This document shows positions 47,718 to 63,348 of a DNA stretch of 64,000 bases, piece after piece (within the stretch, counting starts at the first letter, position 1; every line of letters starts with the position of its first letter). Where the stretch lies: the NCBI GenBank assembly GCA_019637755.1, contig JAHBVC010000001.1, positions 834,480-898,479 of the forward strand. Reading direction: 5' to 3'. The notes below the pieces were generated by a model. The model had not been told where the DNA came from. It saw only the letters and a program-made list of their open reading frames with translations, and did no database searches. A program made the translations under genes and the position numbers. Origin of the DNA: Anaerolineales bacterium. Its GTDB lineage: Bacteria; Chloroflexota; Anaerolineae; Anaerolineales; UBA11579.

Positions 47718-49448
47718 ATGCGTAAGCTTCGTTGGCAGCTCATTCTGGTGGGGCTGGCCCTGGCGGCCATCGCCATCCTGCTGCTGGCGCGCCAACCGCT
47801 GCTGCGCGGCCTGGGCGCCGAGCCCGGCCAAGGCGGCACCTATATCGAAGGCCTGGTGGGCACGATCGGCCGCCTGAACCCGCTGCTCGACGATGCCAAC
47901 CCGGCCGATCAGGACATTGACCGCCTGATCTTCAGTGGCTTGCTGCGCTACGACGAGCGCGGCAACCCGCAGCCCGATCTCGCCGAGGCCTGGGGCGTTT
48001 CGATCACCGGGGAAACCTACAACATCACCTTGCGCCCCAACCTCACCTGGCATGACGGCGCAGCGCTCACCACCCAAGACGTCGCCTTCACGATTGACCT
48101 GATGCGCAATGCCGAGCTGCCCATCGCCGCCGATCTGCGCGCGCTATGGGCCAAGGTGGAGGTGATCGTGCTGGATGAGCGCAATATGCAGTTCGTTCTG
48201 CCCAGCGCGTTTGCGCCCTTTACGGATTATCTAAGCTTTGGCGTGCTGCCGCAGCACATTCTGGGCAACCTCAGCCCCACCGAGCTGCTCAACGCACCTT
48301 ACAACCTTCAACCAGTGGGCTCTGGCCCCTTCCGCTTCGAAGAATTGCTCTCGGAGGAGGGCCAGATCGCCGGGGTGAGCCTGCGAGCCTGGGACGGCTA
48401 CTATGCCGGGCGCCCCTTCCTCGATCAGGTGATCTTCAACCTGTACGATAGCTCCGAAGACGCGTATGCGGCCTACCAGCGCGGGGATGTGATGGGAGTC
48501 AGTTACCTCAGCCCGCAGGTGCTCAACGAAGCGCTCAACGACCCCAATATCAGCATTTATTCCAGCCGCTTGCCGCGGCTGACCCTGCTGCTGTTCAACT
48601 TGGGCAGCAATGAAGTGCCGTTCTTCGAAGAGCAGGCGGTGCGTAAAGCGATCTTTGCTGGGATTAACCGCCAATGGATTGTTGACCAGTTCCTCGGCGG
48701 CCAGGCTTTCCTGGCCGAGGGGCCGATCCTTCCCGGCACCTGGGCCTACAACGAGAACCTGCCGCGCATCGCCTATGACCGTGACGCCGCGCTGACGGAG
48801 TTGCGCCAGGCTGGCTACTCCATCCCGGCCAGCGGCGGCGAGATCCGCAGCAAGGACGGCATCAGCCTCAGCTTCCAATTGGTCTACCCTGATACGCCGC
48901 TGCATGCGCAAATTGCTGCCAGCATCCAGAGCGATCTGGCCGCCCTGGGGATGGATGTGCGCCTGTTGGCCGTGCCGTATGCTGACTTGATCAGCAATTA
49001 TCTTGAGCCGCGTACCTACCAGGCCGCACTGGTAGATTTGAACCTCTCCAGCTACCCGGATCCTGACCCGTACCCCTTCTGGCACCAAGCGGCCATCTCG
49101 GGTGGGCAAAATTACGCCCGCTGGGATGATCGCCGCGCCAGCGAATACCTGGAAGAAGCACGCGTCTCGGTGGATACGCTGAAGCGGATACGCTTGTATC
49201 GCAACTTCCAAAATCACTTCATCAATGAAGTGCCAGCCGTGCCGCTGTACTTCCCCGTGTATAGCTACGGGGTCTCCCCATTGGTGCGCGGGGTTTCGAT
49301 GGGGCCGCTGTTCCAAACCAGCGATCGCTTTGCAACTCTGTCCGAATGGTTCCTAGTAGCCCGCAGCCAATTGGATGAGCTGGAGCCTACCGCCCAGCCG
49401 CAGCAACCGGATAGCGAAACACCGGCCAGCGATAGCCCACAGCAATAA
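47718..49448 (+). CDS. Extracellular solute-binding protein, family 5 (conventional domain order)
   Basis: A 576-residue peptide/oligosaccharide-type binding protein (SBP_bac_5). An N-terminal hydrophobic helix (LILVGLALAAIAILLLA, about 8-24) anchors it, with no lipobox Cys. The order is the family's usual one: VGTIGRLNPLLDDANPADQDI, LFSGLLRYDERGNPQPDLAEAW-like block, LRPNLTWHDGAALTTQDVAF, then FVLPSAFAPFTDYLSFGVLPQHIL, then NLQPVGSGPFRFEEL and a C-terminal LVRGVSMGPLFQ. A Gln/Pro/Ser-rich tail ends it. No permease genes adjoin, so it may serve a transporter encoded elsewhere. Confidence 0.88.
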   Translation: MRKLRWQLILVGLALAAIAILLLARQPLLRGLGAEPGQGGTYIEGLVGTIGRLNPLLDDANPADQDIDRLIFSGLLRYDERGNPQPDLAEAWGVSITGETYNITLRPNLTWHDGAALTTQDVAFTIDLMRNAELPIAADLRALWAKVEVIVLDERNMQFVLPSAFAPFTDYLSFGVLPQHILGNLSPTELLNAPYNLQPVGSGPFRFEELLSEEGQIAGVSLRAWDGYYAGRPFLDQVIFNLYDSSEDAYAAYQRGDVMGVSYLSPQVLNEALNDPNISIYSSRLPRLTLLLFNLGSNEVPFFEEQAVRKAIFAGINRQWIVDQFLGGQAFLAEGPILPGTWAYNENLPRIAYDRDAALTELRQAGYSIPASGGEIRSKDGISLSFQLVYPDTPLHAQIAASIQSDLAALGMDVRLLAVPYADLISNYLEPRTYQAALVDLNLSSYPDPDPYPFWHQAAISGGQNYARWDDRRASEYLEEARVSVDTLKRIRLYRNFQNHFINEVPAVPLYFPVYSYGVSPLVRGVSMGPLFQTSDRFATLSEWFLVARSQLDELEPTAQPQQPDSETPASDSPQQ

Positions 49449-57383: not shown

Positions 57384-58379
57384 TCAGGCCAGGAAGTCCT
57401 CAGCAAAATGGCAGGCCACCTGGTGCCCCGGGCGCAGCTCACGCAGCTGTGGCTCTTCGGCCGCACAGCGTTCCAGGCGGGCGATCGGGCAGCGCGGGTG
57501 GAAGCGGCAACCGCTGGGCGGATTCAGCGGGCTGGGCACATCGCCAGTGAGCACGGCGCGCGTGCGCTTGCGCTCCGGATCGGGCATGGGGATGGCCGAC
57601 ATGAGCGCCTGGGTGTAGGGGTGCAACGGCTTGGCGAAGAGCTCATCGCGGGTGGCTACCTCGACAATTTTGCCCAGATACATCACGGCGACGCGGTCGG
57701 AAATATGTTCGACCACCGCCAGGTTGTGCGCCACGAACAGATAGGTCAGCCCAAGCTCATCTTGCAAATCCTTGAGGATATTGAGCACCTGGGCCTGAAT
57801 CGACACATCCAGAGCCGATACCGGCTCATCGAGAATAATGAATTCGGGATCCAGCACGAGAGCACGCGCAATGCCGATGCGTTGGCGCTGGCCGCCGGAG
57901 AATTCGTGCGGGTAGCGGCTGGCATGGTATTCCTCCAGCCCCACCATCTTGAGCGCCTTGAGTACGCGCGCATAGCGTTCATCTACACTGCCAAGCTTAT
58001 GGATCACCAGGCCTTCGGCAATCGCATCGCCCACGGGCAACCGCGGATCGAGCGAAGCGTACGGATCCTGAAAGACGATCTGCATCTTGCGGCGCAACTG
58101 CTTGAGCTCTTCGCCACGCGCGGCGAAGACGTCTTGCTCGCGGAAGAAGACGTTGCCGCCGGTGGCGCTATCCAGGCGCAGCATGGTTTGGCTCACCGTG
58201 GTCTTGCCGCAGCCGGATTCGCCCACCAAGCCGAGCGTTTCGCCCTGCTTGATGCTGAAGCTGACATCGTCTACCGCTTTGACTTCGGCCACCTGATTGG
58301 ACAGGAAGCCATCATTGACTGTGTAGTATTTGCGCAGGTTCTCTACGCGCACCAAATCGTGAGCTTGTTTTGCACTCAT
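57384..58379 (-). CDS. oppF: Oligopeptide/dipeptide ABC transporter ATP-binding protein
   Basis: A 331-residue ATPase of the peptide ABC importer. Walker [19 protein letters not shown], the Q-loop [14 protein letters not shown], signature [19 protein letters not shown] and Walker [19 protein letters not shown] are intact. The C-terminal oligopeptide-family extension has [17 protein letters not shown] with four cysteines, a likely Fe-S or zinc site known in this family. Its ATG overlaps the oppD stop by 4 nt. Last gene of the operon; it lies 32 nt from mvaD. Confidence 0.95.
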
Positions 58380-59422
58380 ACACCCGCCAGCGTGATCGGG
58401 GCCGTGTGGCCCTCGGCGTTCTCATATAACCAGCAGCGCACCAGGTGGCCGGGGGCCACTTCCTGCAGGCTGGGTTCGGCATGGTTGCAGATCTCCAGGC
58501 CATACTGCTCGCGCGCTTTGCAGCGCGGGGCAAAACGGCAACTGGGTTGCAAGCCGATCAGGTTAGGCACCGCGCCGGGAATGGTTTCGAGGCGCTCTTT
58601 GACATCCCCCAAGACCGGGATCGATTCCTGCAGACCGACGGTGTACGGATGCAAGGGCTGCTTGAACAAGCGGCGCGTATCGGTCTGCTCGACGATCTGG
58701 CCGGCATACATCACCGCCACGCGGTCAGCCATCTCGGCCACCACGCCTAGATCATGCGTGATGAGGATGACCGAGGTGCCGGTTTCGGCGCTGAGCTCGC
58801 GCAGCAGATCCAGGATCTGCGCCTGGATGGTAACGTCCAGCGCGGTGGTGGGCTCATCGGCGATGAGCAGCTTGGGCTTGAGCGCCAAGGCCATGGCGAT
58901 CATTACGCGTTGCGCTTGCCCACCGGAGAGTTGGTGCGGGTAGGCTTTGGCGCGGCGCTCAGGGTCAGGAATGCCCACCTGGCGCAGCAGATCCACGGCG
59001 CGCGCCCAAGCCTCTTTCTTATCCAGCTTCTCGTGGATATCAAAGACTTCGACCAGTTGCGCGCCAATCGTGAACACCGGGTTGAGGCTGCTCTTGGGCT
59101 GCTGAAAGATCATCGAGACGTGCTGGCCGCGAATGCGGTTCATTTCCCGGCCGCTCTTCAGTAGCAGGTCTTCGCCTTCCAGAACGATCTCGCCGGAGAC
59201 GATCTTGCCGGGGGCATCCACCAGGCGCAGCACAGACAGCGAAGTTACGCTCTTGCCGCAGCCTGATTCGCCCACCAGGCCAAAGATCTCGCCGGGGGCA
59301 ACCTCAAAGCTGACGTCATCCACCGCGGTGAGCACACCGTCCTCGGTGAAAAAATATGTCTTGAGATGATTGACCGCCAGCAGGGGCTGCTGTGCGGCCG
59401 CAAGGGTGTTGTTTTTAGCCAT
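58376..59422 (-). CDS. oppD: Oligopeptide/dipeptide ABC transporter ATP-binding protein
   Basis: A 348-residue ATPase partner of OppF. Walker [22 protein letters not shown]-loop [14 protein letters not shown], signature [19 protein letters not shown] and Walker [19 protein letters not shown] are present, with the C-terminal Cys cluster [19 protein letters not shown]. It couples ATP hydrolysis to peptide import with OppBC. It starts 6 nt after the oppC stop. Confidence 0.95.
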
Positions 59423-59428
59423 GGCTAC

Positions 59429-60382
59429 CTATTTCTTGGCCACCTGTGCCAGGCGCGGGTCCATCGCATCGCGCACGCCATCCCCCAGCAGGTTGAAGGC
59501 CAGCACGGTGAGCATGATCGCCAGGCCGGGGAAGAAGACTAGATGCGGAGCGGTGAAAACCTGGTTGCGCTCGCTGCCCAGCATGGTGCCCCACTCCGGC
59601 GTGGGCGGCTGGGCCCCCAGGCCTAAGAAGGAGAGCGCGGCAGCTTCGAGGATCGCCGCGGCAATGCTCAGCGTAGCCTGCACCACCAGGGTGGGCAAGG
59701 CGTTGGGGAAGATACGAATGAACAGCAGGCGCAGCGGGTTGGCGCCCAGGGCGCGTGAGGCTGAAACGAACTCCTGCTCTTTAATCGAGAGCACCGAGGC
59801 GCGCACCAGGCGAGCAAACACGGGGATATTGACGATGGCAATCGCATACAACGCGTTCTGTAGGCCACGGCCGATCACGGTGATGATGGCAATCGCCAGC
59901 AAAAAGCTGGGGAAGGCTAAAACTACATCCATCATGCGCATGATCAGGTTGTCCACCCAACCGCCGACATAGCCCGAGAAGGCGCCAATCACCGCGCCGA
60001 CGATGACCGCCATGCCGATGGTGGAGAAGCCGATGAATAGCGAAACACGCGTACCGTAGAGGATGCGGCTGTATACATCGCGATAGTTGGCATCAATGCC
60101 CATGATGTGCTCGGGCTTATCCTCCGGGCAGCCCAACAAATGGATGCAGGGCGCCTCACGCTCTTTGAGCGTCTCTACCCCCAGCAAGGATTGCACGGGG
60201 TCGTAGGGCGCCAACACCGGCGCCAGGATCGCCACCAGGGTCAGAAACGCCAGGATGATCATGCCGGCAATCGCATTGCGTTGCTGGAACAGGCGGCGCC
60301 AGGTGAGCGCCGCCAGGCTGCGGGAGCGCAACGCATCGGTTGGCGCGGGGACAAGGGATTCGATAGTGGTATTGCTCGACAT
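59429..60382 (-). CDS. oppC: Oligopeptide/dipeptide ABC transporter permease
   Basis: A 317-residue inner-membrane permease with about six helices. An N-terminal OppC segment WRRLFQQRNAIAGMIILAFLTLVAILAP is followed by a loop with two Cys (HLLGCPEDKP) before the DVYSRILYGTRVSLFIGF helix. The EAA loop ASRALGANPLRLLFIRIFPNALP contacts the ATPases. It begins 2 nt after oppB ends. Confidence 0.94.
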   Translation of the reverse strand: MSSNTTIESLVPAPTDALRSRSLAALTWRRLFQQRNAIAGMIILAFLTLVAILAPVLAPYDPVQSLLGVETLKEREAPCIHLLGCPEDKPEHIMGIDANYRDVYSRILYGTRVSLFIGFSTIGMAVIVGAVIGAFSGYVGGWVDNLIMRMMDVVLAFPSFLLAIAIITVIGRGLQNALYAIAIVNIPVFARLVRASVLSIKEQEFVSASRALGANPLRLLFIRIFPNALPTLVVQATLSIAAAILEAAALSFLGLGAQPPTPEWGTMLGSERNQVFTAPHLVFFPGLAIMLTVLAFNLLGDGVRDAMDPRLAQVAKK

Positions 60383-60384
60383 GG

Positions 60385-61467
60385 CTATCTCAATCGAATG
60401 CGTGGATCAATATAGGCGTAGGAAATATCCACCAGCATGTTCACGACCACATAGCCGAGGGCGACCACAACGGTAAAGCCCTGGATGATGGGGTAATCGC
60501 GCCCGGTGATGGCGTCAAACAAGGCGCGCCCCACGCCCGAGATGCCAAAGGTAGTTTCGGTAAGCACCGCGCCGGCAAACAAGGTGCCGACCTGAATACC
60601 GATGACGGTGATCACTGGCAACAAGGCGTTGCGCAGGGCATGTTTGAGGATGACCAGGCGCTCGGCCACGCCTTTGGCGCGGGCGGCGCGCACATACTCA
60701 CGGCCGAGCACATCCAGCATGCTGGAGCGGGTGATGCGGGCAATAATGGCCAGCGGAATGGTGCTGAGCGCCACCGCCGGCAGGATCATATGGCGGAACG
60801 CATCGACAAACACTGACCATTGCCCGGTAATTAGTGCATTGAAGAAAACAAAGTTCGAGAAGAAATCGGCGGCCATGTACGCCGTGGTGCCACGCGTCAG
60901 GGCCCAGCCCCAGGCTTCGTAAAACGGCGTGGGGATCACACCAGCGGTCAGCCGCCCGGTGGGCGCCAGCCACAGCGGCGTATCTTTGAGCAGGATGGCA
61001 AACACATAGGCCAACATCAAGCCGAGCCAATACACCGGCATGGAGACGCCGATGTTGGCGCCCACCATGGTGGCCACATCCACCGAGGAGTTGCGCCGCA
61101 CAGCGGAGAGGATGCCCATAGGCACCCCCACCAGGATGGAGATCACCAAGGCCGAGAAGCCCAGCTCCAGCGTCACGGGCAGGCGCTCAATGATCATTTG
61201 CGATACCGGGCGGCTGTAGCGGATCGAATCGCCGAAGTTGCCACGCAGCAGGATCTCCTGCATGTAGATGCCCAGTTGCACCACCATAGGCTTATCCAGC
61301 CCCATGCGCTCATTGAACGCGTTGCAGGTGGCTTCGCTGGCGCGTTCGCCCAGGGCGGAGCGGCAGGGATCACCGGGGATGGCCCGCGCGATGACAAAGG
61401 TCACCACAAGGATGCCAAGGATCACCGGGATGGTGAGGAGGATACGTCTCAGAATGTACTTTGCCAT
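60385..61467 (-). CDS. oppB: Oligopeptide/dipeptide ABC transporter permease
   Basis: A 360-residue permease. The start AKYILRRILLTIPVILGILVVTFVIARAIPGDP is typical of DppB/OppB, and the EAA loop is YVRAARAKGVAERLVILKHALRNALLPVI. A longer than usual periplasmic loop (about 180-215, LKDTPLWLAPTGRLTAGVIPTPF) is present. It follows the binding protein gene by 104 nt on the same strand. Confidence 0.95.
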   Translation of the reverse strand: MAKYILRRILLTIPVILGILVVTFVIARAIPGDPCRSALGERASEATCNAFNERMGLDKPMVVQLGIYMQEILLRGNFGDSIRYSRPVSQMIIERLPVTLELGFSALVISILVGVPMGILSAVRRNSSVDVATMVGANIGVSMPVYWLGLMLAYVFAILLKDTPLWLAPTGRLTAGVIPTPFYEAWGWALTRGTTAYMAADFFSNFVFFNALITGQWSVFVDAFRHMILPAVALSTIPLAIIARITRSSMLDVLGREYVRAARAKGVAERLVILKHALRNALLPVITVIGIQVGTLFAGAVLTETTFGISGVGRALFDAITGRDYPIIQGFTVVVALGYVVVNMLVDISYAYIDPRIRLR

Positions 61468-61571: not shown

Positions 61572-63275
61572 TTACTGGGCGTTGATGAAGCTATCCCACA
61601 GGTAACCGTAGTAGTCGAAGCTACCAGTGTTACCGACGTGGTACGGGCTGGATGCATCCAGACCGCGGGCCCAAGAGGCCACCACGTCATCCGCATCGAG
61701 GGCGGAACCGTCATGGAACTTGACGCCTTCACGCAGGCTGCAGGTCCACACGGTGGATTCGTCATTGGCGACACATGCGGTAGCCAACTCAGGGAAGGTT
61801 TCGCCGGAGTCCTGGCCGTATTCCAACAGGGTCTCAACGACCTGCTGGCAGGCGGTCAGGGACTCACCATCGGTCTCATCCGCGCAGTCCAAGCTGATCG
61901 GCTCGGCGTTCTGGATGACCACGATGCTGTCGGTGCCGTTGTCAAAGAAGTTGAACTGCGGAGCACCGAAGGGCGGGTAGTAAGCGCCTTGCAGCGCGGT
62001 GGAGGCGGCGTGCGAAGCAGAGCCGTGCGCCACCGGGATCAAGGGCACCAGCTCCTTGATGGCGTTGTTGGCCTGGGCATACAGCGGAGCGGCGGTGGCC
62101 AGGTCAGAGATCGAGGAGGCCTCTTGCAGGGCTTCGTAGATCTCAGCGTGGGCCGTACCAAACTGCGGGTTGTTGGCCGCAAAGTGGAAGTCCAGGAAGT
62201 TGGTGACGTGCGGGTAGTCCGCGCCCCAACCCAACAGGTGCATACCGTCGGTCAGAGTGCCGGAGGTGGACGCATCGATGAACTCACCGGATTCCATCGG
62301 CACGACTTCCACGGTGATGCCCAGGTTTTCCTGCAGTTGCGCCTGGATCTCAGTGGCTACACGAGCCGGCTCGGGCAGGTAGACGCGGAACACATCGCGG
62401 TAGTACAGCTTGGTGGTGAAACCATCCGGGTAACCGGCCTCGGCCAACAGGGCGCGGCCAGCTTCGGCGTCGAAGGTGTACCAGTCCTCGCCCTCACAAC
62501 CGTTGGGGATACCGCAGGGGGTGAAGTGGGTGGCGACTTCGGAGCCAGCCGGGTAGAAGTTATCCACAATGCGCTGGTAGTCCAGGCCCATGGCGATGGC
62601 GCGGCGCACATCCACATTGTCAAACGGGGCAGCCGTGTTGGTGAAGCCCACGTAGAAGACGTTGGGATTGTCCTGGTTGATCAGCTGCAGGTTGGGGTCG
62701 CTCTCGATGGTAGCGTAGTCAGACGGGCTGACGTTGGAGATGAAGTCCGCCGTGCCGGCCTGCAGTTCCTGCAAGCGGGCGGCGCCTTCGGTCAACCAGC
62801 GCAGGGTTACCGTGCTGGCTGCGCTCTTCTGACCCCAATAGTCGTCAAAGCGGGTGTAGACGATCTGGTTGCCACGATCCCACTGGGCCACCTTGAAGGG
62901 GCCAGTACCGATCGGGTTCTCCAGCAAGTCGCCGCTGCCGCCCGTGCGGGCGATGTGCTCCTGCGGCTGAATACCAAACGGCGTAAAGGCGATCTTGGCC
63001 TCGAACGCCGGGTCCGGCTTGCACAGGGTGAACACAACGGTCAGCTCATCCACCGCTTCGATGGAGAGCACCTTGCCGCCGTAATCACAGCTGCCGGCAT
63101 CCAGCTTCAGGCCTTCAAACTCTGCCATGGCGGCAAATTCATCCTGAGCCGCACCGGTGTCGCCACCGGTCGCGGTGTCCTCAGTGGTGGCTGCGGGAGC
63201 GGTAGCGCCGCCGCAAGCAACCAGCACGAGGCTCAGCGCCACGAGCAGAGCAAATAACGTGCTCAATTTCTTCAT
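61572..63275 (-). CDS. oppA: Peptide ABC transporter substrate-binding lipoprotein with circularly permuted domain order
   Basis: A 567-residue family-5 binding protein. The signal peptide ends in LVLVAC (lipidated Cys21), then a Thr/Gly/Ala linker. The mature part starts with what is normally an internal piece: VDELTVVFTLCKPDPAFEAKIAF, then NPIGTGPFKVAQWDRGN and the lobe-2 core to VPLIPVAHGSAS and ALQGAYYPPFGAPQFNFF, the usual C-terminus. Only then come SIVVIQNAEPISLDCADETDG, VVETLLEYG, FPELATACVAN and LREGVKFHDGSALDADDVVAS, normally the N-terminus. The final residues LWDSFINAQ would normally lead into the piece found near the start. I chose ATG 63275 (AGGAG at 9 nt) over ATG 63281 (3 nt). 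Confidence 0.9.
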   Translation of the reverse strand: MKKLSTLFALLVALSLVLVACGGATAPAATTEDTATGGDTGAAQDEFAAMAEFEGLKLDAGSCDYGGKVLSIEAVDELTVVFTLCKPDPAFEAKIAFTPFGIQPQEHIARTGGSGDLLENPIGTGPFKVAQWDRGNQIVYTRFDDYWGQKSAASTVTLRWLTEGAARLQELQAGTADFISNVSPSDYATIESDPNLQLINQDNPNVFYVGFTNTAAPFDNVDVRRAIAMGLDYQRIVDNFYPAGSEVATHFTPCGIPNGCEGEDWYTFDAEAGRALLAEAGYPDGFTTKLYYRDVFRVYLPEPARVATEIQAQLQENLGITVEVVPMESGEFIDASTSGTLTDGMHLLGWGADYPHVTNFLDFHFAANNPQFGTAHAEIYEALQEASSISDLATAAPLYAQANNAIKELVPLIPVAHGSASHAASTALQGAYYPPFGAPQFNFFDNGTDSIVVIQNAEPISLDCADETDGESLTACQQVVETLLEYGQDSGETFPELATACVANDESTVWTCSLREGVKFHDGSALDADDVVASWARGLDASSPYHVGNTGSFDYYGYLWDSFINAQ

Positions 63276-63348
63276 AGTCATAATCTCCTAAAGTTACTTC
63301 TCCGTCCAAAAAAATTTATACGTTTGGGTGGACCTGTGGCTCGTCGGC

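Follow-up and report, generated by a model that had tools for sequence, protein, structure and literature searches.

The question raised by this locus is whether a family-5 solute-binding protein can be encoded in nature with its canonical N-terminal (N), middle (M) and C-terminal (C) segments in a rotated order, how such an order arose and whether the product still serves its transporter. The window analyzed here is a 64,000-nucleotide stretch of Anaerolineales DNA, in which a first-pass annotation, made from the letters alone, had proposed a natural circular permutant. It is concluded here with high confidence that the product of the gene is the substrate-binding lipoprotein of a DppABCDF-type di- or oligopeptide ABC importer and that this protein is naturally circularly permuted, the function being inferred and the rotation being envisaged as a near-neutral event.

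The gene is a single open reading frame (ORF) of 569 amino acids, with AGGAG read directly immediately 5' of its ATG. The first-pass annotation had placed the same gene at 61572-63275, but position 63275 belongs to a second ATG and the ORF runs to 63281. The product is a lipoprotein, encoded by the first gene of a dpp operon, in which the SBP_bac_5 segments are ordered M-C-N and not N-M-C (Table 1). Against the Pfam SBP_bac_5 profile (PF00496) the ORF scored 269.5 bits (cut-off 32.4) in two stretches, the larger of which aligned residues 68-371 with profile positions 62-365, and a profile search of the organism's own genome placed profile 62-365 upstream and profile 4-58 downstream within the gene; the canonical N-M-C profile order is not met. 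Alignment with PDB sequences matched residues 71-440 to HbpA 126-499 and residues 464-559 to HbpA 16-118. The pattern obtained with Escherichia coli DppA was the same, and the break was located by sequence alignment at DppA residues ~118-126. By definition, the two halves of a circular permutant match the complementary portions of a single canonical protein, joined at one junction and opened at one new break; the window protein satisfies this definition. The second family-5 protein encoded in the window (47718-49448) has the ordinary order (profile 2-357), as the annotation had stated, and the remaining family-5 matches of the same genome are also ordinary, one of them without a detectable C segment.

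Table 1. Features of the permuted binding-protein gene and its operon (positions in the window).
Feature	Position	Strand	Basis
DppF-like ATPase	57384..58379	-	family knowledge; conserved neighbour in relatives
DppD-like ATPase	58376..59422	-	family knowledge; conserved neighbour in relatives
DppC-like permease	59429..60382	-	family knowledge; conserved neighbour in relatives
DppB-like permease; residues 41-42 = Glu-Arg as in E. coli DppB scoop	60385..61467	-	alignment, PMC12136057
Permuted family-5 solute-binding lipoprotein (M-C-N), first gene of dpp-type operon	61572..63281	-	ORF, Pfam, PDB-sequence order, HMM segment order
Segment N, canonical N-terminal part, DppA ~15-118	61596..61934	-	PDB-sequence alignment, HMM segments
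Short junction, old C-terminus into old N-terminus	61935..61943	-	HMM segments, alignment
Segment C, canonical C-terminal part; contains Arg299, Asp355	61944..62417	-	HMM segments, alignment, PMC12136057
Segment M, canonical middle part, DppA ~126-345	62424..63086	-	PDB-sequence alignment, HMM segments
Flexible low-complexity linker and new N-terminal edge, to CDYGG motif (Cys65)	63087..63212	-	AF2 pLDDT, conservation
Signal peptide, lipobox LVAC, lipid-anchor Cys23	63213..63281	-	read from translation

The translation bears out the proposal that a signal peptide and lipobox had been grafted onto the new N-terminus, since LVAC and Cys23 are present in it, and a lipobox-like motif was found in 86 of 104 M-C-N ORFs. 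Cys65, in the CDYGG motif, is kept in more than 90% of the permuted relatives. Together with Cys87 (63021-63023), Cys65 (63087-63089) forms a nearly invariant pair at the new N-terminal edge of the permuted proteins, and an equivalent of Cys87 is absent from the common residues of the canonical proteins compared; a disulfide between the two is possible.

An AF2 model of the window protein, calculated from 93 permuted sequences, is a single body (pLDDT 93.9, pTM 0.89) with disorder limited to the first ~30 mature residues (pLDDT <60). The C-terminal 120 residues were predicted at pLDDT ~96; their placement relative to the usual N-terminus was not seen in coordinates. Model residues 37-428 were superposed on DppA-type chains by VIA-align (Z ~31, rmsd 2.5-2.8 for the best), and over this range the model has the bilobed fold of cluster C with its extra subdomain. 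Residues 429-547 were covered by neither Foldseek nor VIA-align; because both programs keep the sequence order, they confirm only the M-C part. The extra subdomain of cluster C corresponds to domain Ib of SapA, residues 69-229 (PMC8519434), and since model residue 46 aligns to SapA 173 in VIA-align, the new ends of the window protein lie inside domain Ib. In peptide-binding proteins the N- and C-termini are close together (PMC10924461), so that joining the old termini needs little.

Of the 23 other genomes in the family, 16 carry a co-linear orthologue of the window protein (60-87% identity). The annotation had suggested that the same order be sought in Chloroflexota genomes, and in a sample of the order ~108 of 251 genomes contained a match running through the junction over ~500 residues, with more co-linear orthologues elsewhere in the class and, beyond it, in other families of the phylum. 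The named carriers are Anaerolineales metagenome-assembled genomes, including the chromosome record CP075367.1, and the M-C-N order also occurs in two single-contig genomes (G005 and G011). With both halves complete in one ORF and their order kept in more than 100 orthologues, the identification of a natural permutant is upheld. Tandem permuted copies were observed at L063, L099, L121 and L122, and at L152 (G150:C9:1-10400) a canonical and an M-C-N binding protein flank dppBCDF in one cluster.

To trace the origin of the order, three HMMs were built from the permuted family for segments N (residues 450-562), M (66-286) and C (289-446). Among the distinct proteins of the loci collected up to this step, they gave 100 M-C-N, 35 N-M-C and 7 C-N-M arrangements. 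With few exceptions the M-C-N chains end 5-15 residues past segment N, and the cut is therefore precise. Segments were returned to the canonical order solely for tree building. In the joined tree, all M-C-N proteins form one clade (0.993), within which two C-N-M proteins are nested; the clade adjoins canonical Chloroflexota proteins (e.g. L136/L138), the exact sister varying between runs. It was supported by IQ-TREE (aLRT 99.9) and was also recovered in separate trees of segments N (0.75), M (0.65) and C (0.99). Because all segments, joined or separate, give one M-C-N clade, a single rotation is the simplest reading, and one ancient whole-gene permutation in Chloroflexota fits best. The M-C-N form was also observed in three genomes from the phylum of Arthrobacter (L198, L199 and L200), nested in the Chloroflexota clade; it reached them by transfer or binning error.

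Two other origins of the order were weighed. Many of the sampled genomes are metagenome-assembled, and the order might have been created by an assembly, binning or frameshift artefact, of which the annotation had itself named the first and the last. This is hardly conceivable: the same order in ~108 genomes of the order sample, in both single-contig genomes and in CP075367.1 comes from independent assemblies, which refute it, the permuted ORFs are uninterrupted and have a lipobox, and most of the loci checked adjoin dpp genes. Chance and assembly error are excluded by these many co-linear orthologues, and the artefact was ruled out. Alternatively, a truncated binding protein might have acquired a C-terminal N segment from a different paralogue without any rotation of the gene itself, an idea that has also been raised for TpMglB-2, the permuted part of which is poorly conserved (PMC4990184). 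Such a chimera is very improbable here, as the separate N, M and C trees each group the permuted proteins in a single clade and nest the two later permutants alike; however, the support in the N and M trees is limited and leaves room for an exchange between close paralogues at about the time of origin. Whole-gene rotation remains the preferred reading.

Further permutants were found. L061/L062, which lie inside the M-C-N clade, have the order C-N-M, and between their N and M segments they contain ...FLNAE...APSCDYGGEF, an M-C-N C-terminus running into the M-C-N N-terminal linker motif, as would be expected of a permutant fused head to tail and then permuted again. Other C-N-M proteins (L059, L060 and L071-L073) lie inside a canonical clade. 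Their canonical orthologues, the closest at 74-77% identity, align in two pieces, and the operon around them is unchanged (SBP-dppB-dppC-dppD-dppF-conserved gene); as judged from these sequences, this is a rotation in place within a canonical Chloroflexota dpp operon. In Bacillota, the phylum of [Clostridium] symbiosum, the order C-N-M is found in L202-L207 and in the OppA-like L208. L202-L208 share with the Chloroflexota C-N-M proteins the helix after which the chain stops (e.g. AKELLREAGY). An AF2 prediction of one C-N-M protein from just seven sequences was uninformative (pLDDT 43). The breakpoint shared by the Bacillota and Chloroflexota C-N-M proteins is read as convergent. In the family of uncultured Butyrivibrio, L209 (284-2140, +) and L215-L220 carry at the N-terminus the ~70 residues that normally end the chain, with the break inside C; these are Lachnospiraceae-type peptide-binding proteins with the canonical relatives L221, L222 and L232. 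Because canonical L221/L222 nest within this permuted group (0.987 in one tree, aLRT 98.9 in IQ-TREE), either a reversal or repeated events are implied. Finally, an actinomycetotal protein, L201 (1207-3069, -), is cut inside segment M.

On an 89-protein tree, the five segment orders need 8 changes, compared with a mean of 38 for shuffled labels. The 8 changes may be read as about seven rotations, the window's own counted, and one ambiguous change, with four breakpoints. By alignment, the C-N-M and in-C breaks are at DppA 344-346 and ~430, and they are inferred to fall in the other lobe than the M-C-N break. In this count L201 (one protein) and L208 each come from a single genome, and relations between subfamilies are weakly supported. 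As sampling outside Chloroflexota was thin and the profiles were derived from permutants, the count is only a lower bound for the sample and no measure of the true frequency. In plasmid records (129; 1,710), no place covered 80% of a permuted query, so that none was permuted as the two queries are; among 155 genomes from the phylum of Rhizobium, the best matches stopped short of the junction and the inspected loci were canonical; and in nine genomes of other lineages there was no junction-spanning match of the window type, bar the hint leading to L209. Taken with these bounds, the family-5 binding proteins are probably a natural hotspot of permutation. On this reading, Chloroflexota, Bacillota and Actinomycetota would have seen a minimum of seven independent rotations, using four breakpoints; among them would be a permutant permuted twice, a recent in-place rotation in an intact operon and possibly a reversal in Lachnospiraceae, with the lipid tether hopping round one fold while transport is kept.

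Beside the binding protein, two permeases and two ATPases are encoded (57384-61467), as in most of the relatives checked; the DppC, DppD and DppF identities are presumed from knowledge of the family. In E. coli, DppA R383 and D436 (mature 355 and 408) hold the dipeptide and meet the E41/R42 scoop of DppB (PMC12136057). By alignment, the equivalents of DppA Arg355 and Asp408 in the window protein are Arg299 and Asp355, and the permuted proteins retain the arginine in 31 of 34 cases and the aspartate in 33; Glu41-Arg42 is present in the DppB of the window. Since these residues are kept, the window protein most likely captures di- or oligopeptides and delivers them to DppBC, although its ligand, expression, binding and transport are all inferred.

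Approximately one-fifth of the permuted ORFs have more than 180 residues ahead of segment M, and most are not fused. An extra N-terminal part was observed at L083, L084, L088-L093, L097, L099, L112 and L113, with two such long proteins in tandem at L099. In the extended ORFs, Pfam recognized one or two Peripla_BP_6 domains (L084 and L097), SBP_bac_1 (L064) or SBP_bac_3 (L108). The 1086-residue protein L107 (1908-5165, +) consists of a caspase (Peptidase_C14), HEAT and FHA domains, followed by a permuted family-5 binding domain, and is possibly a sensor. The new N-terminus is inferred to tolerate cargo.

The most likely route to the permutant, itself inferred, would be tandem gene duplication and fusion followed by loss of the outer parts; no intermediate has been seen for the window protein's own clade. 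In the permuted chain the old N- and C-termini, neighbors in domain I, are joined by a few residues, the chain opens in the cluster-C-specific subdomain at DppA ~118-126, and a signal peptide, lipobox and long linker were added at the new start, by which the lipid tether came to sit on another subdomain. Despite the moved tether, the clamp of the Venus flytrap is retained, as are the residues that dock with DppB. As the lipoprotein is tethered by a flexible linker, a shift of the chain ends is inferred to be near-neutral, which would explain the independent permutations of other family-5 proteins. Furthermore, as the extended ORFs show, the permutation made the N-terminus available for fusion to other binding domains.

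Selection may instead have favored the new tether position or fusion. The permutant would then be the same, with an adaptive rotation in which a tether on another subdomain improves docking or allows fusions. The near-invariance of the Cys65/Cys87 pair, as though to fasten the new terminus, and the N-terminal extensions are consistent with this idea; it is nevertheless considered unlikely, though not negligible, as the independent permutants use other breakpoints, with no single tether site favored, and fusion is absent from most permuted proteins. A further alternative is that the permuted protein has left the importer and serves as a sensor or scaffold, as could be suggested by the caspase-FHA protein L107 and by the relatives fused to binding domains of the LivK, glutamate or sugar type. 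This is improbable for a protein whose gene leads a dppBCDF set, both in the window and in most relatives checked, with the ligand and scoop residues retained. An importer subunit rotated at little cost remains the preferred reading.

The window protein shares with DppA, HbpA and OppA (family 5, cluster C, PF00496) the fold, as judged by AF2 and VIA-align, sequence similarity in all segments, the operon with DppBCDF and the ligand-holding arginine and aspartate; however, its order is M-C-N and its lipid tether is at the cluster-C subdomain, whereas theirs is at domain I. Strand order is also rearranged between the Type I and Type II topologies of binding proteins, which Fukami-Kobayashi reportedly attributed in 1999 to domain dislocation. 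The change there is a deep one that separates classes of fold, whereas the family-5 permutants lie within one family with readable sequence identity. A closer parallel is TpMglB-2 (Tp0684), a natural permutant of a cluster B sugar-binding protein named 'Type Ic / Cluster Bc' by its authors (PMC4990184). It is likewise a naturally permuted, tethered ABC binding lipoprotein conserved among a set of relatives, but it has a cluster B sugar-binding fold, another breakpoint and a permuted part that is hardly conserved in sequence. The family-5 permutants belong to cluster C, are conserved in sequence throughout and arose in several independent events; the window protein, which is cluster C by sequence and fold, does not meet the Cluster Bc definition. 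No report of permutation in cluster C or family 5 was found in full-text literature searches, the scope of which excluded subscription papers and most preprints. This agrees with the annotation, which knew of no described case in the family, but TpMglB-2 is a precedent in another cluster of binding proteins.

To our knowledge, proteins permuted in nature are mostly single cases whose history is obscure. In this family, canonical and permuted orthologues (~74-77% identity, same operon) coexist, so that the route of rotation, its cost and the effect of the tether are directly testable. The permutation explains split or partial Pfam hits, and searches that keep sequence order can mis-annotate such proteins. 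In addition, naturally permuted binding proteins are material for sensor design. For the family itself, the finding means that the start and end of a well studied fold can move in nature with the transporter apparently still working.
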